Assembly: GCF_900129875.1 (NCBI RefSeq)
Contig: NZ_FQXC01000003.1
Span: forward strand, 620,001 to 684,000
Length of the DNA stretch: 64,000 bases
Reading direction: 5' to 3'
DNA from: Marivita hallyeonensis
GTDB lineage: Bacteria > Pseudomonadota > Alphaproteobacteria > Rhodobacterales > Rhodobacteraceae
Of this stretch, positions 5,097 through 44,494 are shown one piece after another; position 1 is the stretch's first letter, and the number at the start of each line of letters is the position of its first letter. The notes below the pieces were generated by a model. It saw only the letters and a program-made list of their open reading frames with translations, was not told the DNA's origin and searched no databases. Both the position numbers and the translations under genes were made by a program.

Positions 5097-5154
5097 GCTG
5101 GGGTTTACGTCCGAGCGCTAGGAGTTCTGTGGGGCGTAGTGAAAGGTAGTGGGA

Positions 5155-5982: not shown

Positions 5983-6085
5983 GGTTTGGCGAAAATTGAT
6001 CAACTTTTATTCGTTAGGTCCGCGTTAAATCCGCGACCGTAAAGCTTCTGGTAGATAAACGGTCCTCTTTCCAGAAAGGCGATTC

Positions 6086-7387: not shown

Positions 7388-7413
7388 TCGACTGATTTGA
7401 AAAGGATTTCTGC

Positions 7414-8862: not shown

Positions 8863-8874
8863 AGGAACACACTC

Positions 8875-10982: not shown

Positions 10983-10997
10983 AGGAAAGCACAAAAA

Positions 10998-16213: not shown

Positions 16214-17571
16214 TCAAAGCCGTCGCCTCCCAGTTCCAGGGAACTTCGCTGACCGCGAGGTTCATGCGCAGTTCCGCGTTCACGCTGAGCGGCTATGCCG
16301 CCGGACAGGTTCTGCGCCTTGCGTCCAATCTGATACTGACGCGTCTTCTTTTCCCCGAGGCGTTCGGCCTGATGGCGCTTGTCGCGGTGATCATCCAGGG
16401 CCTCTCCATGTTTTCCGACGTCGGCGTGAGCCCCGCGATCATGCAGTCAAAGCGCGGGGACGATCAGCGGTTTCTCGACACGGCGTGGACCATTCAGGTC
16501 ATTCGCGGGGCGTTGCTTTGGCTCTTCGCCTGTCTGATCGCGATCCCGGTGGCGCGGTTCTATGAAGAACCGCTGCTTGCCTGGATCCTCCCGTGTGCGG
16601 GCATCAGCCTTCTGGTTTCCGGGTTCAATCCGACGCGCATGGATACGGCGAACCGCCACCTTCTCGTCGGTCGGCTAACGGCGCTCGACCTGATTGCCCA
16701 GTCTGCGGGGATCGTGATCGCAGTCGGTCTAGCCTGGTATCTGCAGTCGGTGTGGGCGCTTGTGATCAGCGGCGTGGCAGCGTCCGTGATCTTGCTGTGG
16801 CTCTATCACAGATTTCTGCCGGGGCAGTCGAACCGGTTTCATTGGGAAGCGGCAGCAGGTGCGGAACTCATCAGCTTTGGGAAATGGATCTTCCTCAGCA
16901 CAATCTTTGGGTTTCTGACCGCACAGGGCGACAAGCTGTTGCTTGGGAAATATCTGCCGCTCGATCAATTCGGTATCTACAACATCGCATTCTTTCTCGC
17001 GAGTTTTCCGTTGCTCATGGGGGGTGTGCTCATCCGCAAAGTGTTGATCCCGCTGTATCGTGAGGCTCCGCCTGCCGAGAGCGTGGCCAACTTCCGGAAA
17101 CTCCAGAAACTGAGATTTCTGTTGACTGCGGTCATCTTCGGCCTCGCTTCTGCGGTCTCGATGGCCGGGGTGGTGTTGATCGACGTGATGTACGATCCGC
17201 GTTACGCCATGGCAGGCGCGGTCGTTGTCGTGATCGCAGCCATGCAAATCCCGCAAATCATTGTACTGACCTATGATCAGGCGTCTTTGGCGGCAGGGGA
17301 TTCCCGCAGCTATTTCATCCTGTCCGCCGTGCGCGCCACCCTCACGCTCGGCTTCCTTTTTGCCGGCCTTCTATATGGTGGACTGTTCTGGGCCCTGATC
17401 GGGCAAGGCCTTGCCGGAGTCGTGGCCTATCCGTTTGTGGTGCATGTCGCGCGCAAGGTGAAGGCGTGGGATATCATCCACGATGTTGCATATGCATTTC
17501 TCGGATTGATCGCCGTGAGCGTGGCGTTCTGGATGAACGCAGATGCCGTCTCGGCCCTCGCTGCGATGTGA
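16210..17571 (+). CDS. Wzx-type polysaccharide flippase (MOP superfamily)
   Basis: The ~453-residue membrane protein has 10-12 predicted transmembrane segments and the oligosaccharide-flippase layout. The N-terminal SAFTLSGYAAGQVLRLASNLILTRLLFPEAFGLMALV is characteristic of PST/Wzx-like transporters. A conserved cytoplasmic loop contains FGKWIFLSTIFGFLTAQGDKLLLGKYLP at mid-protein. It should flip undecaprenyl-linked repeat units to the periplasm. The start is uncertain: GTG at 16210 forms a 4-bp overlap with the preceding stop; GTG at 16195 adds five residues. It sits between two glycosyltransferases and the PKS, tying the polyketide genes to glycan export. Confidence 0.87.
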   Translation: MIKAVASQFQGTSLTARFMRSSAFTLSGYAAGQVLRLASNLILTRLLFPEAFGLMALVAVIIQGLSMFSDVGVSPAIMQSKRGDDQRFLDTAWTIQVIRGALLWLFACLIAIPVARFYEEPLLAWILPCAGISLLVSGFNPTRMDTANRHLLVGRLTALDLIAQSAGIVIAVGLAWYLQSVWALVISGVAASVILLWLYHRFLPGQSNRFHWEAAAGAELISFGKWIFLSTIFGFLTAQGDKLLLGKYLPLDQFGIYNIAFFLASFPLLMGGVLIRKVLIPLYREAPPAESVANFRKLQKLRFLLTAVIFGLASAVSMAGVVLIDVMYDPRYAMAGAVVVVIAAMQIPQIIVLTYDQASLAAGDSRSYFILSAVRATLTLGFLFAGLLYGGLFWALIGQGLAGVVAYPFVVHVARKVKAWDIIHDVAYAFLGLIAVSVAFWMNADAVSALAAM

Positions 17572-17678: not shown

Positions 17679-20600
17679 ATGACCATGGAAACTACGGCGC
17701 CTGGCGCGGCGTCCGAAACCGACATTGCCATCGTTGGCATGTCCGCGCATTTGCCGGGGGCATCCTCGCTTGCCGAATACTGGCGCAATCTGCGCGATGG
17801 AGTGTCCTCGATCCGGCGTTTGAATGAAGACGAACTTATCTCGGCAAGCGTCCCGCAAGGGCTCTTGCGCCACCGCGATTACGTCCCTTACGCAGCCCTT
17901 CTAGACGGCTATGACCAGTTCGACGCTGAGTTTTTTGGCCTTTCACCCAAAGACGCGGCCATTATGGATCCGCAACACCGGCAGTTCCTCGAATGCGCGT
18001 GGGAAGCGCTCGAAAACGCGGGGCACATGCCGGAACGATACGATGGGCGGATCGGTGTCTTTGGTGGCTGCGGTATGGGCAGTTACTTTTACTTCAACCT
18101 GTGCTCGAACACCGACCTTGTCGACAATACGGGCATGTTCCTGTTGCGCCATACCGGCAACGACAAGGACTTTCTTACGACACGTGTGAGTCACATTTTT
18201 GACCTCGATGGTCCGTCCGTCAGTGTGCAGACCGCCTGCTCGACCTCCCTTGTCGCGACGCACTACGCCTGCCAATCGCTTCTCAACGGCGAATGCGACA
18301 TGGCGTTGGCTGGTGGTGTGACCATAGAGATGCCGCAGGGGCAGGGATATCTCTACAAGGAGAACGAAATCCTGTCGCCCGATGGCCAGTGCCACGCGTT
18401 CGATCATCGCGCGCAGGGGACGGTCTTTGGTTCCGGCGCCGGTATCGTCGTTTTGCGCCGCCTATCGGACGCTCTGGCCGATGGTGATCACATCTGGGCG
18501 GTCATCAAGGGCAGCGCGGTCAACAACGATGGCGCAGCCAAAGCGGGCTACCTGGCCCCATCTGTGGATGGGCAATCCGAAGCCATTTCCGAAGCACACG
18601 CAATCGCCGGCGTGACTGCCGACAGCATCGACTATGTCGAATGCCACGGCACCGGGACGTATCTGGGCGACCCGATTGAGGTCGCGGCGCTGACACAGGC
18701 TTTCCAGGAAACCAGCGACAAGGTTGGACATTGCCGCATCGGGTCGGTCAAAACCAATATCGGCCACCTCGACACGGCTGCTGGAGTTGCCAGCCTCATC
18801 AAAGCGTCGATGGCGCTGCACAACCACCAGATGCCGCCAAGCCTTGGTTTCGAGAAGCCGAACCCGACGATTGACTTCGAAACTTCTCCGTTCCGGGTAA
18901 ACGACCGCTTGTCCGACTGGCCAAGAACAGGTCATCCCCGGCGCGCGGGCGTCAACTCACTTGGCGTCGGCGGGACCAACGCCCACGTCGTGCTAGAAGA
19001 AGCGCCGGACGTGGCCGCATCGGAAGACAGCGATTGGCCATTTCAGATCCTCACTGTCTCGGCGCGCAACAAGGCCGCGCTGGATGGCAACGCACAGCAG
19101 CTTGCGGCGCATCTTCGGGCGAACGCGGATCAGCCGTTGGCTGACGTCGCATGGACTCTCAAGGAAGGCCGCCGCGCGTTTGAAAAACGCCGGATCGTTG
19201 TTGCCGCCGACCATCTCGAGGCCGCGCGGCTGTTAGAGCAAGACGACACCCGCCGTGTCCATTCCCATGAAGCGATGAAGGACCCAGACGTTGCCTTCCT
19301 CTTCCCCGGTGGCGGTGCGCAGTACGTCAACATGGCGCGTGACCTGTACGAAACAGAGCCGGTTTTCGCAGAATGGATGGACCACGGGCTGACGCATCTC
19401 GAAACGCTTGAAGACCGGGATATCCGCGCCCTCTGGTTGCCGGAACCGGACAAGGCCCGCGCTGCGTCAGAGGCGTTGCGCAAACCGTCCTTGCAGTTAC
19501 CGCTCATCATGATCGTCGAGTATGCGCTGGCGCAGCTCTGGATGAGCTGGGGCGTTGAACCTTCGGCCTTGGCGGGCCATTCGATGGGCGAAAACACGGC
19601 GGCCTGCGTTGCTGGCGTGATGTCCTTTGAAGACTGCATCGGGCTCGTCCACCTGCGCGGCAGCCTTTTCGATACCGTGGAAAAAGGCGGTATGCTGTCG
19701 GTGGCCTTGCCAGCAGAAGAACTGAAGCCGTTTCTCAAAGGTCCCATCGATCTTGGCGCGATAAACAGTCCGGGCCTCAGCGTGGCCTCGGGGCCGAACG
19801 CGGCCCTGATGGCACTTGAGAAAGAGCTGAAGGCGCGCGACGTTGATTTTCAGCGGATTCCAATTGATATCGCAGCGCATTCGCACATGCTGGAACCGAT
19901 CCTTGACCGGTTCCGCGACTATCTCAAATCGATCGATCTGCATCCACCGCAAATCCCGATGACGTCGAACGCGACGGGTACGTGGATGACGGACGAACAG
20001 GCCACCGATCCCGATTACTGGGTCGGCCATCTTCGCGGCACGGTGCACTTTGCGCAATGTCTCGATACGCTCTCGGACCGCCCCAGCCGCATCTATCTGG
20101 AAGTCGGCCCCGGCAAGGCGCTTTCTGCGCTCGCCCGGCAGTGTGAGGGCATCAAGCCACAACAGGTCCTGTCCAGCCTGCGCCATCCCGAGGATGAGGT
20201 TGCGGACGACCGGCACCTGCTCGAGGTGCTTGGTCGCATCTGGGCACTAGGCGGCGAATTCGACTGGGCGCAGATCTGGGGTGACGCACGTCGCAACCGT
20301 GTGCCGCTGCCCACCTACGCTTTCCAGCGTTCCCGCTATTTTATTGAGCGCAGCGAACAAACCACAAGCACCGCGCCGACGTTCCTGTCGCGCATCGATG
20401 GCGTCGAAAATTGGGGTTGGACCCCATCATGGCGGCCCAAATACGCCGATGCCCCCGTCAACGTCCGCACTGAATTGGGCAAGGCCGAACCGCAAAGCTG
20501 GCTGATGTTCATGGATGATTGCGGTGTTGCGGCCGCAGCAGCGCGCCGCATCCGAGCGGCGGGACATGCCGTGGTCGAAGTCTGGCCTGGCGACAGCTTC

Positions 20601-23600
20601 GCCCGTCTAGATGAGACGACCTACGCGCTTGCACCTGAGCGGGGTCGCGAAGGGTATGACCTTCTTTTCCGGGACATGCTCTCGCATGGACTGGTGCCAA
20701 GTCGCATCGCGCATTTCTGGGGTGTGACGAAGGACAAAAGCCATCGTCCGGGATCAAGCTTCTTTCACCGGGTTCAGGAACACGGATTCTATTCGCTTCT
20801 CTTCATCGCTCAGGCGATTGCGGACGAAACGCTGCCGAAACCAGCGCATATCAACGTATTCACGAACGACGCCGCGGCGCTTGGTGCAGATGAGTTGCTG
20901 ACACCGGAAAAGGCTATTCTTTCCGGCCCCGCACGCGTCATTCCACGTGAAATCCCGAACCTGACTGTGTCGAGCATAGACGTGCAGGTGCCGATGCCGC
21001 CGAAAAACACCCTGTTCGGTCGCGCCGCCGGGCAAGCCGCTTTCGAGGCCGAGATGGACGCGCTGACCGATCAGGTGCTCGAAGACCTGATCGCCGAGCC
21101 AAGGTCATGCACCGCCGCGTTGCGAGACGGACGTCGGTACGAACAGTCCCTTCGGAAAACGCCGCTCACCCCGACGACGACGCCGGCCCTCAAACCGGGC
21201 GGGACGTACCTCATCACCGGTGGCTTTGGCGGCATTGGCCTGACCATTGCCAAATCCCTTGCGGCGCAGAACTGCACCCTTGTGCTGACCGGGCGCGAAG
21301 CTTTGCCTGACCGCGCGCATTGGGATCGGATCGTCCAACGCCATGCCCCGCAAGACAAAGCGGTGCGGCGCATTCAAGCGGTGCAAGAACTGGAAGCGCT
21401 GGGCGCGACGGTGCTCACATTCGCTGCGGATGTGTGCAACCTCATCGACATGACTGACGTGGTCACGAAAACGAAAGAGGTCGCAGGTCGGATCGACGGC
21501 GTCATCCACGCGGCGGGTATCATAGACGACGCGCCGCTTCTGTCGAAGACAACCAGCGCGATCGAACAGGTCTTTTCCGCCAAGATTCATGGCACGAAAG
21601 TGCTGGATGCCCTGTTCCCGGATGGTGAAACAGATTTCATCGTCTTGTTCTCGTCATCCTCCACCCAGACCGCGCCTGCGGGTCAGGTCGACTACGTTGC
21701 AGCGAATGAGTATCTCAACGCGTTTGCTCGCTCCCGCAAAGGCGGGTCGACCTCTGTCGTCGCGATCAACTGGGGCATCTGGGCAGAGGTCGGCATGGCC
21801 GCAGACGCCTTGGCCGACCGAACCGGAGACCGTAGCGCGAGTGAATTCACCGACATTGATCTGCCGCTCCTGCAGTCCACCGGGTTCGATCCTTCCGGTC
21901 ACCGCGTCTTCCACGCGCGGTATTCGACGCAGGATTGGTTTATCGACGAACACCGAACCAAGCGGGGTGATGCGCTGTTCCCCGGCGCGGGTTACCTTAC
22001 GCTCGCGGCGCAGGCGTTGCGCGGCCAAGGTGAAGGAGACGCTTTCGCGATCCGCAATATGACCTTCCTTCGCCCGCTCCACGTCGCGGACACCGGTCAC
22101 CGCGACATCCGTCTGCGCCTGACCCGCGGGGACGAAGGGTACCACATGGATGTGATGGGCGATGGTTCGCTTGACGGGACCAAGGGCTTTGCGCCCGTGG
22201 TCACGGCCGAACTGTCACTGATCCCGCAAGCACAGCCTCAATCGCTTGATATCGAGGCGATCCGCAAACGCTGTGGCGCGCCACGGACGGCGCGGAACGG
22301 ACAAAAACTCGCCGCCGCGCAGGAAACCCAACTTGCCTTTGGACCGCGTTGGAAAACCCTCGACACCTGTGCGTTTGGTGACGGCGAAGGCATTGCAGAA
22401 CTGTCTCTCAACGCTGCCGCGAAAGACGATGATGGCTGGCACTTCCATCCCGCCCTGCTGGACATCGCCACAGGCTGGGCGATGGAACTGATCGAAGGGT
22501 ACCGCGCCGACAGGCTCTGGGTGCCGGTCTCGTACGCTGATGTGCGTGTGTTCCATCGCTTGCCCGAACGCGTGATCAGCTGGGTGCGGTCGGCGAGTGC
22601 AAACCGCAATGATGACGAAACCGCGTCTTTCGACATCACCCTCGCCATGCCGGATGGCACAGTCTGCATGGAGATCGCGGGATTCTCGATCAAACGCCTG
22701 GATGATCTGGGCGCCCTGACCAAACCTGCGAAGATCGTGAAAGCCGAATTCGAACCCGAGGATTTCAGCCGCAAGGCACAACCGTTGTCCGCAGCTGAGG
22801 AGCGGCTTCAATACAACTTGTCGCAAGGCATTGAACCAAAGGACGGTGCCGAAGCTTTCCAGCGCGCTCTGGCCTTGAAAGAGCCGCAGATTGTGGTGTC
22901 GTCCTTGGACATGGACGCCCTGATCGAACAGGTCGGCGCAAGCACTGCGGAATCGTCTGACACTCAGAAATTCGACCGCCCGAAGCTCGAGGGGGATTAC
23001 GTCGCCCCGGAAACCGAGGTCGAGCGTACTCTCGTCGGCATCTGGGAAGACCTGCTCGGCGTACAAAACGTCGGTGTCGAAGACAGCTTTTTCGACCTTG
23101 GCGGGCATTCCCTGATCGCGGTGCGCCTCTTTGCCAAGGTGCGCAAGACCTACGACGTCGACTTTCCTATCTCGATCCTGTTCGAGGCCCCGACGATCCG
23201 TGCCTGCGCGACCCTCATTCAGGAACGCACCGGCATTACCGACAGTGTCGAAGACGCGCCGAAAAGACCCGCAAAGCAGAAGCGGCGTTTCAAACACCTC
23301 GTGGCGATGCACGACGGCGAGGGCGGTCCGAAAATGCCCTTCTTCCTTGTCGCAGGCATGTTCGGGAACGTCCTAAACCTGCGCCATCTCGCGCAGCTTC
23401 TGGGCACGGACCGACCATTCTACGGCCTCCAGGCCAAGGGGCTCTACGGTGACGAAGACCCGCACACCTCGATAAAGGATGCGGCGCGCGACTATATCGC
23501 CGAGATGAAGCTCGTGCAGCCGCATGGCCCGTATTTCGTCGGTGGCTTCTCGGGTGGTGGGATCACCGCCTACGAGATCGCGCACCAGCTGGAAAGAATG

Positions 23601-24155
23601 GGCGATGAGGTGGCGGCCATCGTTCTTCTGGACACGCCGCTCCCGCAACGCCGTCCGCTCAGCCGTCAGGACAGGCTCCTGATCCAGCTTCACGAGACGC
23701 ACCGCAGAGGGGTGGCTTACCCGTTCCATTGGCTGCGCAACCGGATCCGCTGGGAGATCGACAAGCGCCGCATCTCGGAAGACGCAGCGACCACACACAG
23801 TTTCCACAACGCTGAAATCGAGCGCGCCTTTCTAAGCGCGGTTGCCGACTACGGGATGCGCCCTTGGCACGGTCGCATCGCCCTATTCCGGCCGCCGTTG
23901 GTGGGGACGTGGAAAGTGTCGAAAGACCGCTGGGTGAACCACGAACGGGCCTACCTGTTCGATGACAACGACTGGGGTCAATTCACGCCCCAGATCGAGG
24001 TGTACGAAGTACCGGGCGATCACGACAGCATGGTGCTCGAGCCGAATGTGCGTGTTCTTGCAAGCCAGATGCGCAACGTCATTGTCACAACCGAGGCCAA
24101 GGTTGCGGGCAATGGAAAAGTACTGAGTTTTGAGGCGACCCAAGCCGCGGAGTAA
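17679..24155 (+). CDS. Type I polyketide synthase KS-AT-KR-DH-ACP-TE
   Basis: This 2158-residue monomodular PKS has visible domains: ketosynthase (about 12-440; Cys187 in TACSTS, plus the HGTGT and NIGHLD histidine motifs), acyltransferase (about 535-830; Ser635 in GHSMGE), ketoreductase (about 1170-1370; GGFGGIG cofactor loop, Tyr1339 in YVAANEY), dehydratase (about 1415-1700; His1425 in DEHRTKRGDALFPG, Asp1595 in HPALLD), acyl carrier protein (about 1775-1840; Ser1811 in GGHSL), and thioesterase (about 1860-2130; Ser1958 in GFSGGG, Asp1985, His2115). KR precedes DH, unlike the usual DH-KR order. There is no enoylreductase, methyltransferase or loading module. The AT motif AAHSH does not match canonical malonyl or methylmalonyl signatures, so the extender is uncertain. 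It is tightly linked to a GT2 and an NRPS downstream. Confidence 0.95.
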   Translation: MTMETTAPGAASETDIAIVGMSAHLPGASSLAEYWRNLRDGVSSIRRLNEDELISASVPQGLLRHRDYVPYAALLDGYDQFDAEFFGLSPKDAAIMDPQHRQFLECAWEALENAGHMPERYDGRIGVFGGCGMGSYFYFNLCSNTDLVDNTGMFLLRHTGNDKDFLTTRVSHIFDLDGPSVSVQTACSTSLVATHYACQSLLNGECDMALAGGVTIEMPQGQGYLYKENEILSPDGQCHAFDHRAQGTVFGSGAGIVVLRRLSDALADGDHIWAVIKGSAVNNDGAAKAGYLAPSVDGQSEAISEAHAIAGVTADSIDYVECHGTGTYLGDPIEVAALTQAFQETSDKVGHCRIGSVKTNIGHLDTAAGVASLIKASMALHNHQMPPSLGFEKPNPTIDFETSPFRVNDRLSDWPRTGHPRRAGVNSLGVGGTNAHVVLEEAPDVAASEDSDWPFQILTVSARNKAALDGNAQQLAAHLRANADQPLADVAWTLKEGRRAFEKRRIVVAADHLEAARLLEQDDTRRVHSHEAMKDPDVAFLFPGGGAQYVNMARDLYETEPVFAEWMDHGLTHLETLEDRDIRALWLPEPDKARAASEALRKPSLQLPLIMIVEYALAQLWMSWGVEPSALAGHSMGENTAACVAGVMSFEDCIGLVHLRGSLFDTVEKGGMLSVALPAEELKPFLKGPIDLGAINSPGLSVASGPNAALMALEKELKARDVDFQRIPIDIAAHSHMLEPILDRFRDYLKSIDLHPPQIPMTSNATGTWMTDEQATDPDYWVGHLRGTVHFAQCLDTLSDRPSRIYLEVGPGKALSALARQCEGIKPQQVLSSLRHPEDEVADDRHLLEVLGRIWALGGEFDWAQIWGDARRNRVPLPTYAFQRSRYFIERSEQTTSTAPTFLSRIDGVENWGWTPSWRPKYADAPVNVRTELGKAEPQSWLMFMDDCGVAAAAARRIRAAGHAVVEVWPGDSFARLDETTYALAPERGREGYDLLFRDMLSHGLVPSRIAHFWGVTKDKSHRPGSSFFHRVQEHGFYSLLFIAQAIADETLPKPAHINVFTNDAAALGADELLTPEKAILSGPARVIPREIPNLTVSSIDVQVPMPPKNTLFGRAAGQAAFEAEMDALTDQVLEDLIAEPRSCTAALRDGRRYEQSLRKTPLTPTTTPALKPGGTYLITGGFGGIGLTIAKSLAAQNCTLVLTGREALPDRAHWDRIVQRHAPQDKAVRRIQAVQELEALGATVLTFAADVCNLIDMTDVVTKTKEVAGRIDGVIHAAGIIDDAPLLSKTTSAIEQVFSAKIHGTKVLDALFPDGETDFIVLFSSSSTQTAPAGQVDYVAANEYLNAFARSRKGGSTSVVAINWGIWAEVGMAADALADRTGDRSASEFTDIDLPLLQSTGFDPSGHRVFHARYSTQDWFIDEHRTKRGDALFPGAGYLTLAAQALRGQGEGDAFAIRNMTFLRPLHVADTGHRDIRLRLTRGDEGYHMDVMGDGSLDGTKGFAPVVTAELSLIPQAQPQSLDIEAIRKRCGAPRTARNGQKLAAAQETQLAFGPRWKTLDTCAFGDGEGIAELSLNAAAKDDDGWHFHPALLDIATGWAMELIEGYRADRLWVPVSYADVRVFHRLPERVISWVRSASANRNDDETASFDITLAMPDGTVCMEIAGFSIKRLDDLGALTKPAKIVKAEFEPEDFSRKAQPLSAAEERLQYNLSQGIEPKDGAEAFQRALALKEPQIVVSSLDMDALIEQVGASTAESSDTQKFDRPKLEGDYVAPETEVERTLVGIWEDLLGVQNVGVEDSFFDLGGHSLIAVRLFAKVRKTYDVDFPISILFEAPTIRACATLIQERTGITDSVEDAPKRPAKQKRRFKHLVAMHDGEGGPKMPFFLVAGMFGNVLNLRHLAQLLGTDRPFYGLQAKGLYGDEDPHTSIKDAARDYIAEMKLVQPHGPYFVGGFSGGGITAYEIAHQLERMGDEVAAIVLLDTPLPQRRPLSRQDRLLIQLHETHRRGVAYPFHWLRNRIRWEIDKRRISEDAATTHSFHNAEIERAFLSAVADYGMRPWHGRIALFRPPLVGTWKVSKDRWVNHERAYLFDDNDWGQFTPQIEVYEVPGDHDSMVLEPNVRVLASQMRNVIVTTEAKVAGNGKVLSFEATQAAE

Positions 24156-24161
24156 TTGTTT

Positions 24162-25181
24162 ATGACGGAGATCGTCGTTGTCGTTCTGAATTACAAAACC
24201 CCGGATCTTGCGGTCCAGGCGGCGCAGTCCGCCGCTCGGGGTATGTCAGGTTACAGCGGTGCGATACTGCTGGTCGACAACGACAGCCCTGATAACAGCT
24301 TTCAAAGAATGCAGGACGCGGTGCTGGCTGCGGACTGGCCAGCGCATTTGAACGTGCAGGTCCTCCAATCCGGTCACAATGGTGGATTTGGTGCGGGCAA
24401 CAATTTCGGCATCCGCGCAGGTCTCGCGATCTGCCCTCAAGCTGACTACGTCTATGTCCTAAATCCCGACGCTTGCGTGGATGACACCACAATTTCGGCC
24501 CTCGTCGATTACCTTGAAGCGCGGCCAAAGGTGGCCTTCGCCGGAAGCTGGATCTACGGCGACGATGGCGAAGACCACTGCAGTGCTTTTCGGTTGCCGG
24601 GACTCGCCTCGGAGTTCGAAAGTGCCACGCGCTTCGGTCCGGTCACGCGACTGTTGAAAAGCTACGTCCTGCCGTTGCACATCCCCGAGACGTCCGGCCC
24701 GGTCGGCTGGGTCGTCGGCGCATCCTTTCTCGCGCGAACCAGCGTGCTTGAGGAAATCGGCCTCTTTGATGAAACCTTCTTCCTGTATTTCGAGGAAACC
24801 GACATCTGCCTCCGGGCGCACCGCGCGGGATATGAGGTCCATTTCGTGCGCGAGAGCCGAACCTGTCACATCGGCTCCGTCTCGACGGGCCTCGGAACGT
24901 GGGAGCGGACGCCGACATACTGGTTCGACAGTCGTTGGTACTACTACAGCAAGAATTACGGGCGCAGTTACGCTGTGGCCGCGACGGTGCTGAGCGCGAT
25001 CGGCACCGCATTCTGGCGCCTCCGACGGCGTCTTGAAGGCAAACCAAACACGGACGCGCATCGCCATTTGCGCGACATGATCGCCCACGCGGCGAAAGCG
25101 GTGTTTCGACCAACGCCAAAGACCGCAATCCGCAAGATGACCGCGCTGCCCAAAACCGCCCTCCAGCCAAGCTTGGACTGA
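24162..25181 (+). CDS. Glycosyltransferase family 2 (rhamnosyltransferase-like)
   Basis: The 339-residue protein has EIVVVVLNYKTPDLAVQAAQS at its start, a LLVDNDSPD nucleotide-binding turn, NGGFGAGNNFGIRAG, and VYVLNPDACVDDTTI, where NPDA replaces a canonical DXD as in many rhamnosyltransferase-like GT2 enzymes. A GLFDETFFLYFEETDICLRAHRAGY block is diagnostic for this subgroup. The start follows the PKS stop by 6 bp and its stop precedes the NRPS by 3 bp, so the three are surely co-transcribed. It may glycosylate the PKS/NRPS product or the lipid-linked glycan. ATG 24162 is used; TTG at 24156 is the alternative. Confidence 0.9.
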   Translation: MTEIVVVVLNYKTPDLAVQAAQSAARGMSGYSGAILLVDNDSPDNSFQRMQDAVLAADWPAHLNVQVLQSGHNGGFGAGNNFGIRAGLAICPQADYVYVLNPDACVDDTTISALVDYLEARPKVAFAGSWIYGDDGEDHCSAFRLPGLASEFESATRFGPVTRLLKSYVLPLHIPETSGPVGWVVGASFLARTSVLEEIGLFDETFFLYFEETDICLRAHRAGYEVHFVRESRTCHIGSVSTGLGTWERTPTYWFDSRWYYYSKNYGRSYAVAATVLSAIGTAFWRLRRRLEGKPNTDAHRHLRDMIAHAAKAVFRPTPKTAIRKMTALPKTALQPSLD

Positions 25182-25184
25182 CCC

Positions 25185-28100
25185 ATGACCCATTTCGAAA
25201 CCATCATCATCGGAGACGAAAGCCTGACGCAGCATTGCGCTGACACGCTCTTGGCCGAGGGACACACGCTAAGCGCGCTTGTCACCGGTAACCCGGATCT
25301 GGTCACCTGGGCGCAGAAACGCGGCATCCGGGTCGAGGCACATGGCGGCGATCTTGCCGCGCGATTGCAGGACGCGCCGGTCGATTGGCTTTTGAGTATC
25401 GCCAACCTCAAAGTCCTGCCGCCCGACGTGCTCGCCCTTGCGCGGGAAGGCGCGGTGAATTTTCACGACGGCCCACTTCCGCGTCGGGCTGGCCTGAACG
25501 CCCCGGTCTGGGCGTTGATCGATGGCGAAGCGACGCACGGCATCACGTGGCACCTGATCGATGATGGGATCGATACCGGCGACATCCTTGTTCAAAAGGC
25601 GATCGATGTGTCGCCCGAAGACACAGCGCTGACCCTGAATACCAAATGCTACGAGGCGGGCCTGACGAGCTTTCCCGATCTGTTGACGGAACTCACGACA
25701 GGACTTCCATCGCGGCGCGCGCAAGACACGTCACAAAGGACGCTGCACGCGCTTGCGGACCGCCCCGAAGCGAACGGGGTGCTGAGCTTCGATGACTCGG
25801 CTGACACCGCCCTGCGGATCGTTCGGGCGTTGGACCATGGTGGCTACTGGAATCCACTGTGCACCGCCAAGGTCCTGGCGGGTGATACCGTTCTTCACCT
25901 TGGACAGGCCAATAAGACCGAAACCAGCGCCGTACCGGGCACTGTGATCGAAATCGACGCTGAAAGCCTGACCGTGGCCTTTGCAGACGGTGCTTTGAAG
26001 CTGACGGGCCTTAGAACGTCCGACGGCAAACCCGCTGACCCCACGCGTTACATCGCGCTTGGTCAGACACTGACGTCACTCTCGGATCGTGATCGGAAAG
26101 CCATCACTGACACATTTCGCACCATCGCGAAGAGAGATGGGTATTTGCGGGGCATATTGGCCGAGACGCATCCGCTCGCACTCCCGTTCTTGTCCACCAA
26201 AACCGGGGACGTGAAAACAACCCAGATCGATGCCGATTCCGCGCAACTGGCTCCCGCCTTGACAGTCTTGTGCAAGCGTCTGGCCCGCGGCGCCAATGCG
26301 GCAATCGCTCTGACCAATTCCGACCTACAGGCGTCAGCGCGATTTGGCCTTGCCAGCGCATGGGTGCCGGTTTCGGTCGACGCTCTCGACGGCGGAATTC
26401 CAAACCCCTCCGTGTCTTTCGCAACCGACCTCGCTCTGCGCGACGCGAGTCTCGGGGCCATCGACACACCGGCACTTGCCATATCACACGCCGCGGGTCC
26501 GCTTTTGGGCGCGGCCATCACATTTGAAGTGTCGGGCGATCAGGTCAACGCGCATGTCGACACTGGCCGCATCGCGCCGGATTTCGCGCAGATCCTGATC
26601 CAACGGCTGGAATGGATCGCCCAGCACATCGCCGAAGGTCACGACCTATCGACCGAGCAATCGCTTCCCGAAGCCGAGCGAAACGCGATCATCGAAACCT
26701 TCAACGCAACGACACAGACGGTTGACGGGCCGGAAACCATGCATGCCGCCTTTGAGGCGCAGGTGGACAAGACCCCGGATGCCATTGCGGTCGTGCATGA
26801 AGACACTGAAATCACCTTCGCCACACTGAACGAACACGCAAACCGGATCGCGCACACATTGCGTGACATGGGTATCACGGCGGACACTATGGTCGGTTTG
26901 CATTGCAATCGGGGCCCTGACCTCGTCGCAGCCGCCTTGGGCATCCTCAAGGCAGGTGGCGCCTACGTGCCGCTGGACCCGGACTACCCTGCGGATCGCA
27001 TCGCCCATTACCTTTCAGACAGTGGCGCACCAGTTGTCATCACCCAAACTGCGCTCGAAGACACCCTTCCGTCGAACAAAGCAGACCGGCTGGTGATGGA
27101 TCGCGACCGACGCCTTGCCGCCGCACCCAAAACCAACCCCGAACCCGTGGCGACGGGCAAGGACCTGGCGTACGTGATCTACACGTCTGGCTCGACCGGA
27201 ACGCCAAAGGGCGTGATGATCGAACATCGCAACGTGATGAACTTCTATGCGGGTATGGATGCGGTCGTGCCTGACCGCGAAGATGCCACATGGCTCGCCG
27301 TGACCAGCCTGAGCTTCGATATCTCGGTGCTTGAGCTGTTCTACACCATGACACGCGGTATCAAGGTCGTCCTTCCAAGCGCTAGCAATCGCGGCATCAT
27401 TTCGGGCGGCGCGTCGCGCAAAAGCAGCGACGGCATGGAGTTCTCGATCTACTATTGGGGCAACGACGATGGTGTCGGGCGCGACAAGTATCGACTGCTT
27501 CTCGAAGGTGCGAAATTCGCCGACGAGAATGGCTTCTGCGCCGTTTGGACGCCCGAACGCCACTTTCACGCGTTTGGCGGTCCCTATCCCAACCCGTCGG
27601 TGACTGGGGCAGCCGTTGCCGGCGTGACCAAACAGATCGGTGTGCGTGCCGGAAGCTGTGTCGCACCACTTCACCATCCCGCTCGCATTGCAGAGGAATG
27701 GTCGGTGATCGACAACCTGACCAACGGGCGTGCGGGCCTCGCCATTGCAAGCGGGTGGCAACCGGATGACTTCGTCCTGCGCCCTGAAAACACGCCGCCG
27801 GACAATAAGCCTGCAATGTTCGAAGCGATTGAGCAGGTGCGCAAGCTTTGGCGCGGCGAGCCTGTCGCGTTCCCACGAAAAGACGGGAAGATGCACGAGG
27901 TGGTGACCCAACCGCGCCCTGTGTCGAAAGAGTTGCCAATCTGGGTGACCACAGCAGGCAACCCCGAAACCTGGCGCGAAGCCGGGCGCAACGGGGCGAA
28001 TGTGCTGACGCATTTGCTTGGGCAATCCATCGAAGAGGTGTCCGAGAAGATCGGCATCTACCGCCACGCGCTGCGCGAAGCCGGGCATGATCCGCACCGC

Positions 28101-29768
28101 TTCACCGTCACGCTGATGCTGCACACCTGCCTTGCCGGGACGCGCGACGAAGCCCGCGAGATCGCCCGTGAACCGATGAAAGACTACCTGCGCTCGGCTG
28201 CTGGTTTGATCAAGCAATACGCCTGGGCCTTCCCCGCGTTCAAGCGCCCCGAGGGCGTCAAGAATGCGTTCGAGCTGAACCTCGGAGACCTCAGCGAAGA
28301 CGATCTTGAAGGCATCCTCGATTTCGCGTTCGAGCGCTATTTCAACGATTCCGGCCTCTTCGGGACCATCGAAGACGCGCTACAGCGTGTCGAACAACTT
28401 CAAGCCATCGGCGTGTCGGAAATCGCATGCCTCATCGACTACGGCATCGCCACCGATCAGGTGCTTGAGGGGCTGAAGCCGCTGGCAGATGTGGTTCGCC
28501 AATCTGCACCGTCTCTTGACCACCACGACGACGACTATTCGATCGCCGCTATGCTCGGCCGCCACAACGTCACCCACATGCAATGCACGCCGTCGATGGC
28601 CCGCATGATCGCGATGGACGATGATGCACGGGCCGGCCTCAAGGGTCTCAAGCATATCTTCCTCGGAGGCGAAGCATTACCCGGCGCATTGGTCGCTGAT
28701 CTGGGCGAAGCGACGACGGCCACTGTCACCAACATGTACGGCCCAACCGAGACGACGATCTGGTCCTCGACCGAAGTTGCAACCGCAGATGACTCCACGG
28801 TCAACATCGGAACACCCATCGCCAACACGCAGCTTTACGTCCTGGATCCTGACCTGGTGCCGGTCGGGATCGGCGAAGAGGGTGAACTGTGGATCGGCGG
28901 TCAGGGTGTAACGCGGGGCTACTGGAACCGGGCTGAACTTACCGCAGACCGCTTCCGCGACAATCCATTTGCGCCCGGACGCATGTATCGGACCGGCGAT
29001 CTGGTTCAGCGACGCCCTGACGGACGTCTCAACTTCCTCGGGCGGGTCGATCACCAGGTCAAACTGCGCGGCTTCCGGATCGAACTGGGGGAGATTGAAA
29101 GTATCCTCGAAGAGGTGGAAGGCATCACGCAGGCCGTTGTGCTCGCGCGCGAAGACACCCCCGGGGACACGCGACTGGTCGCCTACGTCACCGCGACATC
29201 TGAGCCTGACACAAAGGCATTGCGCACCGCTTTGGCGGATCGATTGCCCGATTACATGGTGCCATCCCATTTCGTCACGCTCGCGTCCTTCCCGGTAACT
29301 CCGAACAAGAAGATCGACCGCAACGCGTTGCCAGCGCCACAATCGGCACCGATGCGTGCGGCCCCTCAGATCAAGACGCCAAGCAACGGCACCAGCAAGG
29401 CTGACGAAGGTTTGCGCCGGGATATCGCCGATATCTGGTCGGAAGTCCTTGGCGTCAGCGACATCGCAGCAGAGGATAATTTCTTCGATCTTGGCGGTCA
29501 CTCGCTGCTTGCCGTGCAGACGCATCGCGCGATCCGGGATCGCCTGTCCCTGCCAAAGCTGTCGATCACCGACATCTTCCAGTTCCCGACGCTCGGAGCG
29601 TTGGCCGACCGGGTCGCGAAACTTGGCGGCGGCCCACAGCAGCCGACGCAACCCGCCGCAAAAGCCACCGTCACACCGATGCCAAAACCTGCGGCAACGG
29701 ACCGGGCCAAAGCGCGCAGCGATGCGATGGCGCGGCGTCGCGCGATGCGGGCGCGTCGGCAGGCCTGA
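25185..29768 (+). CDS. NRPS: formyltransferase, condensation remnant, adenylation domain with inserted luciferase-like monooxygenase, carrier protein
   Basis: Domains of this 1527-residue protein in order: formyltransferase (about 1-310; VNFHDGPLPRR with Asn92 and His94, and DDGIDTGDIL with Asp130, the usual catalytic triad); a shortened condensation-like stretch (about 330-490) without an HHxxxDG motif; N-terminal adenylation part (about 505-745; YTSGSTGTPKGV near 665, FDISVLELF); a MupA/Atu3671-type FMN-dependent luciferase-like monooxygenase (about 750-1105; EFSIYYWGND, VWTPERHFHAFGG); the rest of the adenylation domain (about 1110-1400; NMYGPTETTIW, RIELGEIE, PNKKIDRNALP); and a carrier protein (Ser1440 in GGHSLL). 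There is no thioesterase. It would load one amino acid, oxidise it on the carrier and perhaps formylate it. Insertion of this monooxygenase between adenylation motifs is a known arrangement. Confidence 0.93.
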   Translation: MTHFETIIIGDESLTQHCADTLLAEGHTLSALVTGNPDLVTWAQKRGIRVEAHGGDLAARLQDAPVDWLLSIANLKVLPPDVLALAREGAVNFHDGPLPRRAGLNAPVWALIDGEATHGITWHLIDDGIDTGDILVQKAIDVSPEDTALTLNTKCYEAGLTSFPDLLTELTTGLPSRRAQDTSQRTLHALADRPEANGVLSFDDSADTALRIVRALDHGGYWNPLCTAKVLAGDTVLHLGQANKTETSAVPGTVIEIDAESLTVAFADGALKLTGLRTSDGKPADPTRYIALGQTLTSLSDRDRKAITDTFRTIAKRDGYLRGILAETHPLALPFLSTKTGDVKTTQIDADSAQLAPALTVLCKRLARGANAAIALTNSDLQASARFGLASAWVPVSVDALDGGIPNPSVSFATDLALRDASLGAIDTPALAISHAAGPLLGAAITFEVSGDQVNAHVDTGRIAPDFAQILIQRLEWIAQHIAEGHDLSTEQSLPEAERNAIIETFNATTQTVDGPETMHAAFEAQVDKTPDAIAVVHEDTEITFATLNEHANRIAHTLRDMGITADTMVGLHCNRGPDLVAAALGILKAGGAYVPLDPDYPADRIAHYLSDSGAPVVITQTALEDTLPSNKADRLVMDRDRRLAAAPKTNPEPVATGKDLAYVIYTSGSTGTPKGVMIEHRNVMNFYAGMDAVVPDREDATWLAVTSLSFDISVLELFYTMTRGIKVVLPSASNRGIISGGASRKSSDGMEFSIYYWGNDDGVGRDKYRLLLEGAKFADENGFCAVWTPERHFHAFGGPYPNPSVTGAAVAGVTKQIGVRAGSCVAPLHHPARIAEEWSVIDNLTNGRAGLAIASGWQPDDFVLRPENTPPDNKPAMFEAIEQVRKLWRGEPVAFPRKDGKMHEVVTQPRPVSKELPIWVTTAGNPETWREAGRNGANVLTHLLGQSIEEVSEKIGIYRHALREAGHDPHRFTVTLMLHTCLAGTRDEAREIAREPMKDYLRSAAGLIKQYAWAFPAFKRPEGVKNAFELNLGDLSEDDLEGILDFAFERYFNDSGLFGTIEDALQRVEQLQAIGVSEIACLIDYGIATDQVLEGLKPLADVVRQSAPSLDHHDDDYSIAAMLGRHNVTHMQCTPSMARMIAMDDDARAGLKGLKHIFLGGEALPGALVADLGEATTATVTNMYGPTETTIWSSTEVATADDSTVNIGTPIANTQLYVLDPDLVPVGIGEEGELWIGGQGVTRGYWNRAELTADRFRDNPFAPGRMYRTGDLVQRRPDGRLNFLGRVDHQVKLRGFRIELGEIESILEEVEGITQAVVLAREDTPGDTRLVAYVTATSEPDTKALRTALADRLPDYMVPSHFVTLASFPVTPNKKIDRNALPAPQSAPMRAAPQIKTPSNGTSKADEGLRRDIADIWSEVLGVSDIAAEDNFFDLGGHSLLAVQTHRAIRDRLSLPKLSITDIFQFPTLGALADRVAKLGGGPQQPTQPAAKATVTPMPKPAATDRAKARSDAMARRRAMRARRQA

Positions 29769-29771
29769 GGC

Positions 29772-30725
29772 ATGGCCCCGCACTGGCGCATCTTCGCGGG
29801 TTTGACCCTCGTCCTTCTGGGCGGGCTGGCATGGTACATGCTTAAACCGCCGAAATCTCTGAGCGCAGAGGAACTGTCTGCGCTCTATGAAACGCCGCTG
29901 TCGCCGCCGAGCGAACCATTGACGGTGTACCACCTTGGCCATTCCCTTGTCGGGCGCGACATGCCCGCAATGCTCGCCCAACTCGCAGGCCACGACCACG
30001 CCTCACAGCTTGGCTGGGGCACACCTTTACGAAGTCATTGGTATCCTGACGAACCGATCCAGGGCTTCGATGTCGAAAACGCGCATGACAACTTTCGAGA
30101 TGCGAAATCGGCGCTTGAAAGCGGCGAGTACGATGTTTTCGTCATCACCGAGATGGTCGAGATCGAAGCCGCGATCGAATACTTTGATGCGCCGCGTTAC
30201 CTGCAGAAATGGGTGGAGGCGGCACGCGCTGGCAACCCAGGCATCCGCACATACCTGTACGAGACATGGCACCGTTTGGACGATCCGCAAGACTGGTTGA
30301 ACCGTCTCGACACCGACCCGGCCCGGTACTGGGAAGGCGTGCTGATCGCGCAGGCCACGGCGGCACAACCCGAGGCAGACCCGATCTACGTGATCCCGGC
30401 GGGGCGCGTTCTGGCCGAGTTCGTTCGCAGGATCGAAGCCAGCGGAGGCATCGACGGTGTCGACTCTCGCGAAGACCTCTTCGCCCGTGCCGAAGACGGC
30501 AGCGTCGACACGATCCATGTGAACGATCTTGGCGCGTACCTCGTGGCGCTGACGCATTACGCGGTGCTCTACCACCGCTCGCCCGAAGGATTGCCGGCAC
30601 AACTCGATCGCGCCGATGGCAGCCCGGCCGATGCCCCTGGCCCCGAACTCGCCGCTTTGATGCAAAAGACGGTGTGGGACGTGGTCACCACCTTGCCTGC
30701 CACCGGAATTGCCCCCGCTCCCTGA
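29772..30725 (+). CDS. Membrane-anchored SGNH-hydrolase-like protein
   Basis: The 317-residue protein has an uncleaved N-terminal membrane anchor (FAGLTLVLLGGLAWYML). A lumenal domain begins LTVYHLGHSLVGRDMPAML, with GHSL in the position of the SGNH/GDSL nucleophile Ser. A C-terminal DTIHVNDLGAYLVALTHYAVLY supplies the Asp-x-x-His pattern of SGNH catalytic dyads. The middle (ETWHRLDDPQDWLNRL) resembles GxSx-type SGNH proteins of unknown function. Its start lies 3 bp after the NRPS stop, so it belongs to the PKS-GT-NRPS unit. Plausible roles are acyl/formyl esterase or acyltransferase on the exported glycan. Assignment rests on motifs only. Confidence 0.65.
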   Translation: MAPHWRIFAGLTLVLLGGLAWYMLKPPKSLSAEELSALYETPLSPPSEPLTVYHLGHSLVGRDMPAMLAQLAGHDHASQLGWGTPLRSHWYPDEPIQGFDVENAHDNFRDAKSALESGEYDVFVITEMVEIEAAIEYFDAPRYLQKWVEAARAGNPGIRTYLYETWHRLDDPQDWLNRLDTDPARYWEGVLIAQATAAQPEADPIYVIPAGRVLAEFVRRIEASGGIDGVDSREDLFARAEDGSVDTIHVNDLGAYLVALTHYAVLYHRSPEGLPAQLDRADGSPADAPGPELAALMQKTVWDVVTTLPATGIAPAP

Positions 30726-30733
30726 GATCGGGC

Positions 30734-30750
30734 GGAAACACGCTGTTTCC
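30734..30750 (+). terminator. Short perfect hairpin after the NRPS/SGNH genes
   Basis: GGAAACA (30734-30740) and TGTTTCC (30744-30750) form a 7-bp stem with a 3-nt CGC loop, immediately after the SGNH gene and upstream of the Wzz gene. There is no T-run, so it may be an mRNA-stabilising stem or an operator rather than a terminator. Confidence 0.35.
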
Positions 30751-30876
30751 AAATTCGACGCGCATTGCGTTGGCAATTGGGGCGACTTTTGGCTAAATTG
30801 TGGCTTGTCTGTGACAAACCGGTCTATACCCCGGAACCTACAGATAAGGCGGGGGCCTTGGACTGGAGCTGAAAAC

Positions 30877-32211
30877 ATGATGTATTTTCAGTCATTTGAT
30901 GAGGTCTTCTCCGCGCTGAAACGGCGGCTGGAACTGATCATCATCATCACTGTGATCGGCTGCATTCTGTCCGTCGTCGTGGCCTTATTTCAAAAGCCCA
31001 CCTACAACGCCATTGCCGTGGTGCAGATCGAAGATCCGCAGGTCTCAGGCGCCAACACCAGTGTCGGTGTGTCCACTGAGGACCGCGCCAGTCTCGATGC
31101 CCGCCGCACCGTCCGCCTTATCGAACAGCGCGTGATGTCGCGTGGCACGTTGCTCGAAGTCATGGAAACCCACGACCTCTTCAATGAAGACCCAAGCATG
31201 ACGGTCACCGAACGGATCACCGCGATGCGCGAATCCGTGACCGTGAGCGCAATCCTGTCCGGTGAAGCGTGGGAGCCAAACCCATCGGTGTCCGGCATGA
31301 TCATCGATGTGAACCTTGGCGATGCCCAGAAGGCCGCCGATGTGGCGAACGATATGCTGGCCCGTGTGCTTGAAGAGGCGCGCACCCGCAGCGTTGACCG
31401 CGCGCAGATCGAACTTGAATTCTTCAACGTGGAAGAGGCGCGTATCCGAGAAGAGATCGTGGCCGCCGAAGCCACTGTGGCAAACTTCAAAAGCGCGAAT
31501 GCCGAGTCCCTGCCGGTGAACGTCTCGGTTCTGCAAACCGAACTGACAACCCTGAACGGCGCCCTTCTGTCACTGCGCCAGGAAGCACTCGCTCTGGAAT
31601 CCAACAGCAGCCGTAGCCGACCAGAGGCGCTAGAGCGTCAGCTCAGCGCGGTCCAGGAACAGATCGGACTGATCGAGGCGCGCATGGCCGAGGTGAACAC
31701 CCTTCTGGCCCGCGCCCCGGCGGTTGAACGCGAACTCGTGGCGCTGGAGCGCGAAGTGGCGCAGCTCAATGAACAGTTCACCGTGATCTCCCGGCGCAAA
31801 GCGGATGCGGAAATGAGCCAGAGCCTCGAAGAGCAGCGTCAGCTTGCCCGCTTCGAAGTGCTGGAAGAAGCGATTGTCCCGGTTTACCCGGTGTCGCGCA
31901 GCAAGCGCTCCATCGCGATGCTTGGGGGCATTGCCAGTGGTCTCGTCGCTCTTGGCGTCGCATTCTTGCTCGAGGTGCTGAACCCGCCGATCCGTACGGC
32001 TGCACAGATGGAACGTACGCTTGGCGTACGGCCTGTCATCTCTGTCCCGGTGCTGAACACGACCGGTCCGTCACGCAAGAAGCGCAGCGGCAGGGGATTG
32101 CGGTTTGCCTTGGGCGTGTTCGTCGCTGTGCTCGTCGGCTTGATTGCCGCGGTTGTTCGCCCGATTGTCGAAATGGCAGCTCAGAACATGGCACCGCGCG
32201 ACGCTCAGTAG
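30877..32211 (+). CDS. Wzz/GumC-type polysaccharide chain-length regulator (PCP family)
   Basis: The 444-residue inner-membrane protein is organised as a polysaccharide copolymerase. A first transmembrane helix (ELIIIITVIGCILSVVVALF, about 17-36) is followed by the Wzz-type YNAIAVVQIEDP strand. A long periplasmic coiled coil occupies about 190-340 and a second helix about 343-362 (SIAMLGGIASGLVALGVAFLLEVL), with a third near 410-430. The C-terminus has no Walker motifs, so the ATPase is separate (the convergent CpsD-like gene). It governs polymer length and export. The start is ATG 30877 with GGAG at 30865-30868; upstream in-frame codons read through intergenic sequence. Confidence 0.85.
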   Translation: MMYFQSFDEVFSALKRRLELIIIITVIGCILSVVVALFQKPTYNAIAVVQIEDPQVSGANTSVGVSTEDRASLDARRTVRLIEQRVMSRGTLLEVMETHDLFNEDPSMTVTERITAMRESVTVSAILSGEAWEPNPSVSGMIIDVNLGDAQKAADVANDMLARVLEEARTRSVDRAQIELEFFNVEEARIREEIVAAEATVANFKSANAESLPVNVSVLQTELTTLNGALLSLRQEALALESNSSRSRPEALERQLSAVQEQIGLIEARMAEVNTLLARAPAVERELVALEREVAQLNEQFTVISRRKADAEMSQSLEEQRQLARFEVLEEAIVPVYPVSRSKRSIAMLGGIASGLVALGVAFLLEVLNPPIRTAAQMERTLGVRPVISVPVLNTTGPSRKKRSGRGLRFALGVFVAVLVGLIAAVVRPIVEMAAQNMAPRDAQ

Positions 32212-39774: not shown

Positions 39775-40037
39775 CACACATCCCCATTAGGAATGATGCC
39801 GCAGCTGTGGCTGCGCTGGGGCGGTGTTTTTCGGCGTGGCACGGGTCTGCTCTGGGTCCTGCACGTGATTGGGCGGCGTTAAAGCAATCAATAACGGTGA
39901 TATTTTGGCAAAACTGGTTTTTCTCGCGTCAGAGGCGTCAATTATGTGCATCCTGTCTTGATATTGCAGCGCTCTCGCCCCGATTTAGCCGCATGACAAC
40001 AGTAAACCCCGCTCCGACGACGCAAAAGGAGGCGCAG
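39775..40037. promoter_or_regulatory. Divergent intergenic region between the glycan operon and the WecG-like gene
   Basis: These 263 bp separate two divergent transcription units and must carry promoters for both. The centre (about 39885-39960) is AT-richer than the surroundings. A consensus-like AAAGGAGG Shine-Dalgarno at 40025-40032 fixes the WecG-like start. No convincing -35/-10 pair or operator was identified. Confidence 0.5.
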
Positions 40038-43169: not shown

Positions 43170-43180
43170 TCAAAGCGCGC

Positions 43181-44386: not shown

Positions 44387-44494
44387 GAGGTGGTGTTCCT
44401 TGGTCAAAAGGGCGCAAACGCCCCGGTCGTCGCGGTAGAAACCAGCGTTACCCGGTATCGGTCAAATGACAAACAGGTGTGCAAGATTTCAGTA

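Follow-up and report, generated by a model that had tools for sequence, protein, structure and literature searches.

Gene content of the locus

The locus analysed here lies in a 64,000-nucleotide stretch of the Marivita hallyeonensis genome (contig NZ_FQXC01000003.1, positions 620,001 to 684,000; hereafter the window) and contains a type I polyketide synthase (PKS) and a nonribosomal peptide synthetase (NRPS) encoded among genes for exopolysaccharide assembly. They are the only two large carrier-domain proteins of the host genome (4.19 Mb, label G000; E up to 0.001). Four plus-strand genes form the central block: the PKS (17679..24155), a family 2 glycosyltransferase named GT2b (24162..25181 from an ATG, with an alternative TTG start at 24156; PF00535, 36 bits), the NRPS (25185..29768), whose nearest named relatives are from Marivita species (71-74%), and a membrane-anchored SGNH-fold protein (29772..30725). 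A first-pass annotation, made from the sequence alone, had described this block as a monomodular PKS, a glycosyltransferase and an unusual NRPS, followed by an SGNH-like protein, with gaps of 6, 3 and 3 bp; the gaps are reproduced with the ATG start of GT2b, and the three enzymes are recovered by Pfam and NCBIfam domains.

The block is preceded on the plus strand by a second GT2 gene (gt2a, 15341..16213; PF00535, 72.8 bits) and a Wzx-type flippase (16195..17571; PF13440, 156 bits; 11 predicted transmembrane stretches). It is followed by a Wzz-like chain-length regulator (30709..32211, plus strand, a later start at 30877 being possible by codon-usage gene calling; PF02706, 36.9 bits; TIGR03007, 101 bits, below cut-off) and by a CpsD-like tyrosine autokinase on the minus strand, thus convergent (32205..33260; PF01656, 32.6 bits; TIGR03018 and TIGR01007 below cut-off). 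All four flanking genes agree with the annotation. Minus-strand genes then encode a Gfo/Idh-epimerase fusion taken as a sugar-nucleotide enzyme (33397..35505; PF01408 and PF01370), a GT2 (gt2c, 35518..36552; PF00535), a GT4 (36486..37727; PF00534, 148 bits; NF041876 EPS_EpsE, 234 bits, below the cut-off of 400), an epimerase/dehydratase (37724..38974; PF01370) and a Gfo/Idh oxidoreductase (38647..39777; PF01408), before a plus-strand WecG/TagA/CpsF glycosyltransferase (39807..40820; PF03808, 148 bits; TIGR00696, 107 bits, above cut-off). Flippase, chain-length regulator and glycosyltransferases are thus all present, as in Wzx/Wzy-dependent exopolysaccharide loci.

Domain organisation of the synthases

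Domains of the PKS (Pfam) are arranged as ketosynthase (KS, 17718-19001), acyltransferase (AT, 19290-20141), ketoreductase (KR, 21201-21788), dehydratase (DH, 21864-22709), acyl carrier protein (ACP, 23028-23216) and thioesterase (TE, about 23334-24053), with DH after KR. In an alignment of 53 sequences, window included, the active residues are kept in 50 for KS (3 gaps) and 52 for AT (1 gap); the KR tyrosine, the DH histidine and aspartate, the ACP serine and the TE serine are kept in all 53, and the TE histidine in 52 (1 gap). There is a single ACP, and no enoylreductase domain was recognised by Pfam. The KS-AT piece is closest to the PKS chain of PDB 8xjy/8xjz, a structure in which a peptide synthetase chain is present as well, and the match to the PfaA model is partial (368 bits, far under the cut-off of 1010).

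The KR-before-DH order occurs in iterative polyunsaturated fatty acid and enediyne synthases. Together with the partial PfaA match, it would fit an iterative PKS making a lipid which, with the NRPS unit and GT2b, could anchor the polysaccharide as a glycolipid or act as its special lipid carrier (compare the capsule PKS RkpA of rhizobia and HglE of cyanobacteria). Such a role is improbable, given the single ACP, the lack of a recognised enoylreductase and the fact that the best solved relatives of KS-AT are modular or hybrid PKSs; moreover, a plain lipid would not need a glycine-coded NRPS.

That NRPS begins with a formyltransferase (25185-26069), followed by a degenerate C-terminal lobe of a condensation domain (about 26085-26714), an adenylation (A) domain in two parts (26751-27386 and 28518-29339) and a peptidyl carrier protein (PCP, 29421-29615). 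The A domain is split by a luciferase-like monooxygenase (27441-28493; TIGR04020, 481 bits), inserted after motif A4, between the FDIS motif (residue 711) and the NMYGPTE motif (residue 1183). The closest solved relative of this monooxygenase is PuwE (PDB 6ket, 348 bits). Pfam matches both the N and the C domain of the formyltransferase, of which the N-x-H and D residues are kept in 53 of 54 aligned sequences, the remaining one being a gap. The predicted structure of residues 1-530 (mean pLDDT, the model's confidence score, 92.8) matches ArnA and methionyl-tRNA formyltransferases; only the formyltransferase part was found among the 50 matches listed, and the C-lobe was identified by profile. 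Since the profile of residues 301-530 matches mainly the condensation-domain end and the C-A linker (best E 1.2e-14, microcystin synthetase B), this region is read as a condensation-domain remnant that would lack the catalytic half; no intact condensation domain was matched by Pfam in the NRPS at E 0.001. A formyltransferase with its N-H-D residues, then A and PCP, is the layout of a formylating initiation module, and the best PDB sequence match of the whole NRPS is LgrA.

Read by eye at ten positions on the GrsA layout, the A-domain specificity code is D-I-L-Q-[M/F/L/Y]-G-M-I-W-K, with hardly any variation among 54 sequences. When the 70 genomes surveyed below and 14 further loci were searched by pattern, nine positions could be parsed in 72 A domains. 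Of these, 69 have DILQ[M/L/F/Y]GMIW; the others are DIDQLGMIW (L237), DMVQLGMVW (L245, Streptomyces) and one incompletely read. No code was obtained from six loci (L230-L233, L241 and L244). According to a published survey of A-domain signatures (PMC12283262), DILQLGMIWK is shared by four glycine A domains with a monooxygenase (MOX) domain, and the code found here equals it or differs by one residue.

Accessory proteins

The membrane anchor and SGNH-like nature of the fourth protein, as annotated, were upheld by a predicted N-terminal transmembrane helix, by an SGNH/GDSL-type predicted fold (mean pLDDT 94) and by residues S58, D246 and H249, invariant in 22 aligned sequences. The superfamily features present are the serine of block I, the D-x-x-H of block V and the predicted fold. 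No Pfam or NCBIfam family covers this protein and a PDB sequence search gave nothing; its best solved match by Foldseek is a DUF4886 protein (E 5e-7).

In 60 of the 70 surveyed genomes and in 33 named loci (by gene calling, the codon-usage caller missing some genes such as GT2b in L064), the gene next after the NRPS encodes an Sfp-type phosphopantetheinyl transferase (PPTase), which was confirmed by Pfam in L036, L072 and L039. Marivita loci have no PPTase at this place; the host genome holds one AcpS-sized PPTase and one Sfp-type (PF17837), the latter about 400 kb away on the same contig.

Distribution and neighbourhood in Rhodobacteraceae

The family (Rhodobacteraceae in the GTDB sense) was sampled with 296 genomes, one per genus, evenly drawn and with a completeness of at least 90%. 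A query made of the PKS KR-DH region was positive in 107 genera, all of which also have the NRPS. The short query of the NRPS C-lobe, which undercounts, detected 75 genera, all among these 107; the further 32 also gave an NRPS match at E up to 1e-60, incomplete or in pieces in G180, G231 and G299, and on the same contig and strand as the PKS in 31. Neighbourhoods were surveyed in 70 of the 74 C-lobe positives other than the window, the 32 further genera being outside this set, using hidden Markov models (HMMs) built from the named loci and six-frame matches with a floor of 100 bits, independently of gene calling.

Among all 70, matches were found to the PKS in 67, GT2b in 66, wzz in 63, cpsD in 59, wecG in 57, wzx in 56, wzyC in 38 and the initiating sugar-phosphate transferase (phpt) in 31. 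When only the 60 genomes with 35 kb or more of sequence surrounding the NRPS are counted, PKS, GT2b and wzz are found in all 60, cpsD in 56, PPTase and wecG in 54 each, and wzx in 52. A Wzy_C-type protein occurs in 36 of these longer loci and an initiating transferase in 28; neither a Wzy polymerase nor an initiating sugar-phosphate transferase was recognised in the window locus. PKS, GT2b and NRPS are contiguous in 65 of the 70; of the five in which they are not, G285, G181 and G255 are interrupted by the end of a contig.

Each of the 60 longer loci holds at least three of six glycan-assembly families (wzx, wzz, wzyC, wecG, phpt, cpsD). Retention of the flanking genes was the check proposed by the first-pass annotation, according to which PKS-NRPS pairs found mostly without glycan genes would have spoken against a link; the survey gave the opposite result within the family, where exceptions are isolated. 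Three of the 70 have none of the six families, namely G181 and G254, with 6.9 and 5.7 kb respectively, and G300, with 32 kb. The Wzx homologue gave 113 matches at E up to 1e-60, in 111 of the 296 genomes. Counted irrespective of kinship, 101 genera have both Wzx homologue and PKS, 10 the Wzx homologue alone, 6 the PKS alone and 179 neither; both lie on one contig in 86 of the 101, and within 30 kb in 80 of those.

A scan of named genomes, which used exact peptide patterns of the query and thus favours close relatives, gave 60 loci, 58 with a near-full-length NRPS and two partial matches (Mycobacterium and Qipengyuania). The 58 are titled as Rhodobacteraceae genera or as metagenome-assembled genomes of Rhodobacteraceae, Alphaproteobacteria or Proteobacteria, and in all of them PKS, GT2b and NRPS were matched together on one strand. 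At least one match to the window wzx, wzz, cpsD, wecG, gt2a, gt2c, gt4 or fusion protein was found in the fetched flanks of 53. The remaining five comprise two short contigs, L044 (10.8 kb) and L058 (5.8 kb), then L039 and L073, which nonetheless hold an SGNH gene and a GT4 (by Pfam in L039, its homologue in the same cluster in L073), and finally L072. Gene orders differ, with Marivita, Paracoccus, Pararhodobacter and Defluviimonas types. The Paracoccus type reads wecG-wzyC-PKS-GT2b-NRPS-PPTase-gt4-phpt-sgnh-gt2a-cpsD-wzz-wzx; the Pararhodobacter type has wecG and wzyC upstream only.

As its alternative, the first-pass annotation had named an accidental meeting of two clusters, here one for a metabolite and one for a polysaccharide. 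From the number of Wzx matches in the sample, a 40-kb stretch of a 4-Mb genome is calculated to contain a Wzx homologue in about 1 percent of cases, against the 52 of 60 observed (by HMM at 100 bits, a differing threshold), and the association survives rearrangement and crosses orders. The isolated relatives without glycan-assembly genes speak for chance; it was rejected on the family survey and is judged extremely improbable.

Recent insertion of the block into an intact glycan locus was also considered and set aside: no clean empty site was found among genomes of the same genus. The NRPS is present in 13 of 17 of them, in one case split over two contigs. In G001 and G004, the flanking genes are on contigs that end in or near the block, so that a gap and a loss look the same. 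G002 (L089) has a truncated match to the Gfo/Idh-epimerase fusion near flagellar genes, at the place expected for the exopolysaccharide block, and no NRPS or Wzx match, which is either a loss of the whole block or a misassembly, and G005 gave no match to a near-full-length NRPS, to Wzx or to the fusion gene.

Relatives outside the family

In a sample of 387 genomes of the class, the NRPS N-terminus is matched by 13 (E <=1e-40), of which six belong to the family. Among the seven others, the NRPS is directly followed by the PKS on one strand, with no room for GT2b, in G604, G665 and G553. G575 and G680 also gave PKS matches, but no NRPS-PKS pair could be made out there; in G514 and G646 the PKS was not matched at E 1e-30.

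In a plasmid collection, 258 records match, 13 of them over at least 80% of the query; ten records were examined, including six of these 13. On plasmids of Shinella zoogloeoides and Aminobacter sp. (Hyphomicrobiales), exopolysaccharide loci include genes for the PKS, NRPS and PPTase, the PKS being encoded on the opposite strand; the accompanying genes encode either a flippase, WecB/TagA and a polyprenyl glycosylphosphotransferase, or an O-antigen ligase, an export protein and a flippase. Two unannotated rhizobial plasmids (L241 and L243) look alike by HMM, and two Ruegeria plasmids and one Parasedimentitalea plasmid have the cassette among glycan genes. In Methylobacterium (L244), the NRPS precedes the PKS, with GT4-like and epimerase-like matches nearby.

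Two plasmid contexts stand out. On one of the Ruegeria plasmids just named, the 787-kb plasmid of Ruegeria conchae (L242, 3146-8232), the cassette lies near the VPLPA-CTERM exosortase XrtD and a dTDP-rhamnose operon, hinting at a link of the polysaccharide to exosortase-sorted proteins. A Streptomyces plasmid (L245, 13579-19373) has only a related NRPS with the embedded monooxygenase, then a flavin reductase, near LysW-type genes.

Proposed function

The NRPS-PKS unit is able to stand alone, and in Rhodobacteraceae and some Hyphomicrobiales it is a stable component of exopolysaccharide loci, with a PPTase and usually a GT2. The first-pass annotation had suggested from the neighbourhood that its product is glycosylated or joined to the exported glycan. 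The part of this suggestion that stands is that the PKS-NRPS pair works within the exopolysaccharide locus, as the longer loci, the rearranged gene orders and the Hyphomicrobiales plasmids strongly indicate; the link is not obligatory, because relatives occur without glycan-assembly genes nearby (L072, G300, G604 and L240). The line, which many alphaproteobacteria of the sea and of soil possess, probably makes a glycine-derived group for a surface polysaccharide. We give an even chance to the reading in which the line is a standing part of a Wzx/Wzy-type pathway, making a small acyl group for the polysaccharide.

Domain content, conserved catalytic residues, the glycine code and the association with the locus are seen in the sequences; from these we infer the order of the modules, the chemistry of the product and its attachment to the glycan. 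The order of action would be as follows. A PPTase (usually the one beside the NRPS, here presumably the distant Sfp-type gene) would arm the carriers, after which the A domain would load glycine onto the PCP, the formyltransferase would cap its amine and the monooxygenase would oxidise the glycine unit. The PKS would accept this starter, add probably one malonyl unit, reduce and dehydrate it, and the TE would release the product or pass it to an acceptor. Collinear NRPS-PKS genes in the out-groups, the formyltransferase start, the lack of a recognisable working condensation domain and the TE on the PKS all point to the NRPS acting first and the PKS second; transfer in this direction is further favoured by the resemblance of KS-AT to 8xjy/8xjz, where a peptide synthetase chain is also present. 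The simplest product would be a short acid, for instance formamido-butenoate or a variant in which the glycine carbon is oxidised. The locus statistics are best read as placing it on the polysaccharide: the acyl group could be attached to one of the sugars of the lipid-linked repeat, perhaps the residue that GT2b adds. Wzx would then flip the decorated repeat, and Wzz and CpsD would control its polymerisation. In loci that encode it, the periplasmic SGNH protein may trim or move acyl groups.

Several observations weigh against this reading. L072 is a true exception, with PKS-GT2b-NRPS-PPTase and no glycan gene recognised in its flanks (the scanned neighbours encode an HTH/AHSA1 protein, an alpha/beta hydrolase, a CobS-like protein, GatB and an M1 peptidase), and G300, with none of the six families within its 32 kb, is a real one. 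G604, of another family, has the NRPS-PKS pair and no glycan gene among 10 flanking proteins scanned, nor any locus-HMM match in either flank (8 kb per side); its neighbours are a zinc ABC system, a thiamine pyrophosphate enzyme, a glutathione S-transferase, a hydrolase, a DctP protein, a hydroxyethylthiazole-kinase-like protein and a major facilitator superfamily (MFS) protein. The Aliiroseovarius plasmid L240 (10453-24192) carries a related NRPS that includes the monooxygenase, together with an NRPS/PKS gene of 9.2 kb, close to a nos (nitrous oxide reductase) operon and without glycan-assembly genes nearby. The Wzx homologue is on another contig than the PKS in 15 genomes, and 0.35 to 1.9 Mb away from it in G070, G091 and G311. 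Neither the SGNH protein nor GT2b is essential, since the former occurs in only 23 of the 60 longer loci and the latter is apparently missing between PKS and NRPS in at least 5 genera (PKS and NRPS are side by side in G293 and G300, and gap lengths suggest the same in G211, G232 and G205). No gene was identified as the acyltransferase that would move the product to a sugar. The KR-before-DH order leaves iterative extension possible, and the starter is uncertain if oxidation cleaves the glycine unit, as is said of MOX in PMC12283262, where the domain is described as cleaving the carbon backbone of glycine.

These exceptions, the intact serine and histidine of a PKS-terminal TE and the MFS gene near the G604 pair would also suit a free small molecule (a signal, metallophore or antibiotic), perhaps glycosylated by GT2b, released by the TE and co-regulated with a biofilm polysaccharide while staying outside the polymer. 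A metallophore-like product, such as a siderophore, would fit the ABC uptake system (ATPase, large permease and solute-binding protein, 40817-44407) that lies directly beyond WecG. Homologues of its ATPase, 38-40% identical, are found close to wecG in the Paracoccus loci L052, L055, L076 and L077. Yet the ABC system was matched in only these 4 of the 58 named loci (flanks of at most 10 kb), no outer-membrane receptor was found among the scanned window genes, and the longer loci keep their glycan-assembly genes through several gene orders. A free product is considered unlikely, though it deserves more weight than the lipid discussed above.

If the product is indeed placed on the polysaccharide, a natural-product assembly line feeds surface polysaccharide in the 107 PKS-positive genera of the sample and in some Hyphomicrobiales, and the monooxygenase is possibly a new formylglycine-oxidising enzyme. 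Rhodobacteraceae are known for their marine surface colonisers, and the locus would offer a genetically simple means of studying the influence of polymer chemistry on attachment. In genome mining, such genes would be classed as orphan metabolite clusters. A broader proposal, which we put forward tentatively and at somewhat less than an even chance, is that a whole class of alphaproteobacterial exopolysaccharides is decorated by an NRPS-PKS line dedicated to this task. An N-formyl, oxidised-glycine-derived polyketide acyl group would be assembled on the carrier proteins and handed to the glycan, these polymers then being true polyketide-peptide-polysaccharide hybrids.

Comparison with known systems

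The locus resembles Wzx/Wzy exopolysaccharide loci in its flippase, Wzz, CpsD-like kinase, WecG, GT4, GT2 and sugar-nucleotide enzymes, with a Wzy-type protein and an initiating transferase in many relatives; it differs from them by the hybrid NRPS-PKS, usually with its own PPTase. NCBIfam EPS_EpsA and EPS_EpsE, which we take to be Myxococcus exopolysaccharide proteins, are among the nearest models and were matched below their cut-offs.

Glycine-MOX modules, of which MtaG of myxothiazol synthesis is an example, are amide-forming. The NRPS shares with them the equal or near-equal A code and the FMN-dependent luciferase-like domain inside the A domain, but has an N-terminal formyltransferase in place of a recognised intact condensation domain, and no TE. 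LgrA of linear gramicidin synthesis has the formyltransferase-A-PCP layout; the NRPS differs from it by a formyltransferase C-terminal domain of the ArnA/MTF kind, by the putative condensation-domain remnant and by the monooxygenase in its A domain. PuwE, the closest solved relative of the monooxygenase, belongs to puwainaphycin synthesis, where the acyl chain is said to be converted to a 3-amino-2-hydroxy acyl group by an aminotransferase and a monooxygenase domain (PMC4219810). In that description the monooxygenase acts on the acyl chain and not on glycine.

In Phaeobacter inhibens, a PKS (Inhi_1972) and an NRPS (Inhi_1974), with one gene number between them, are listed among secondary-metabolite genes (PMC4062626); they are perhaps this cassette, the comparison being by gene numbering alone, and the available part of that paper makes no polysaccharide link for them. 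A type I PKS and an NRPS-like cluster without similarity to known ones are reported for Tritonibacter in PMC11225332. In the open-licence literature, which leaves most subscription journals outside coverage, no account was found that joins such a PKS-NRPS pair to exopolysaccharide.

Upstream genes of the window

Ahead of gt2a, the plus-strand gene orfB (13661..15244) has no Pfam or NCBIfam match and no predicted transmembrane segment. It is nevertheless a conserved member of the locus, kept in 48 of the 60 loci of at least 35 kb, and its YVEYSNEVWN stretch is reminiscent of glycoside hydrolases. Directly upstream of the exopolysaccharide locus, flagellar genes (MotB-, FlgE-, FlgK-, FlgI- and MotA-like) occupy positions 5149-11864 of the window, a neighbourhood shared with L088 and, in part, with L089.

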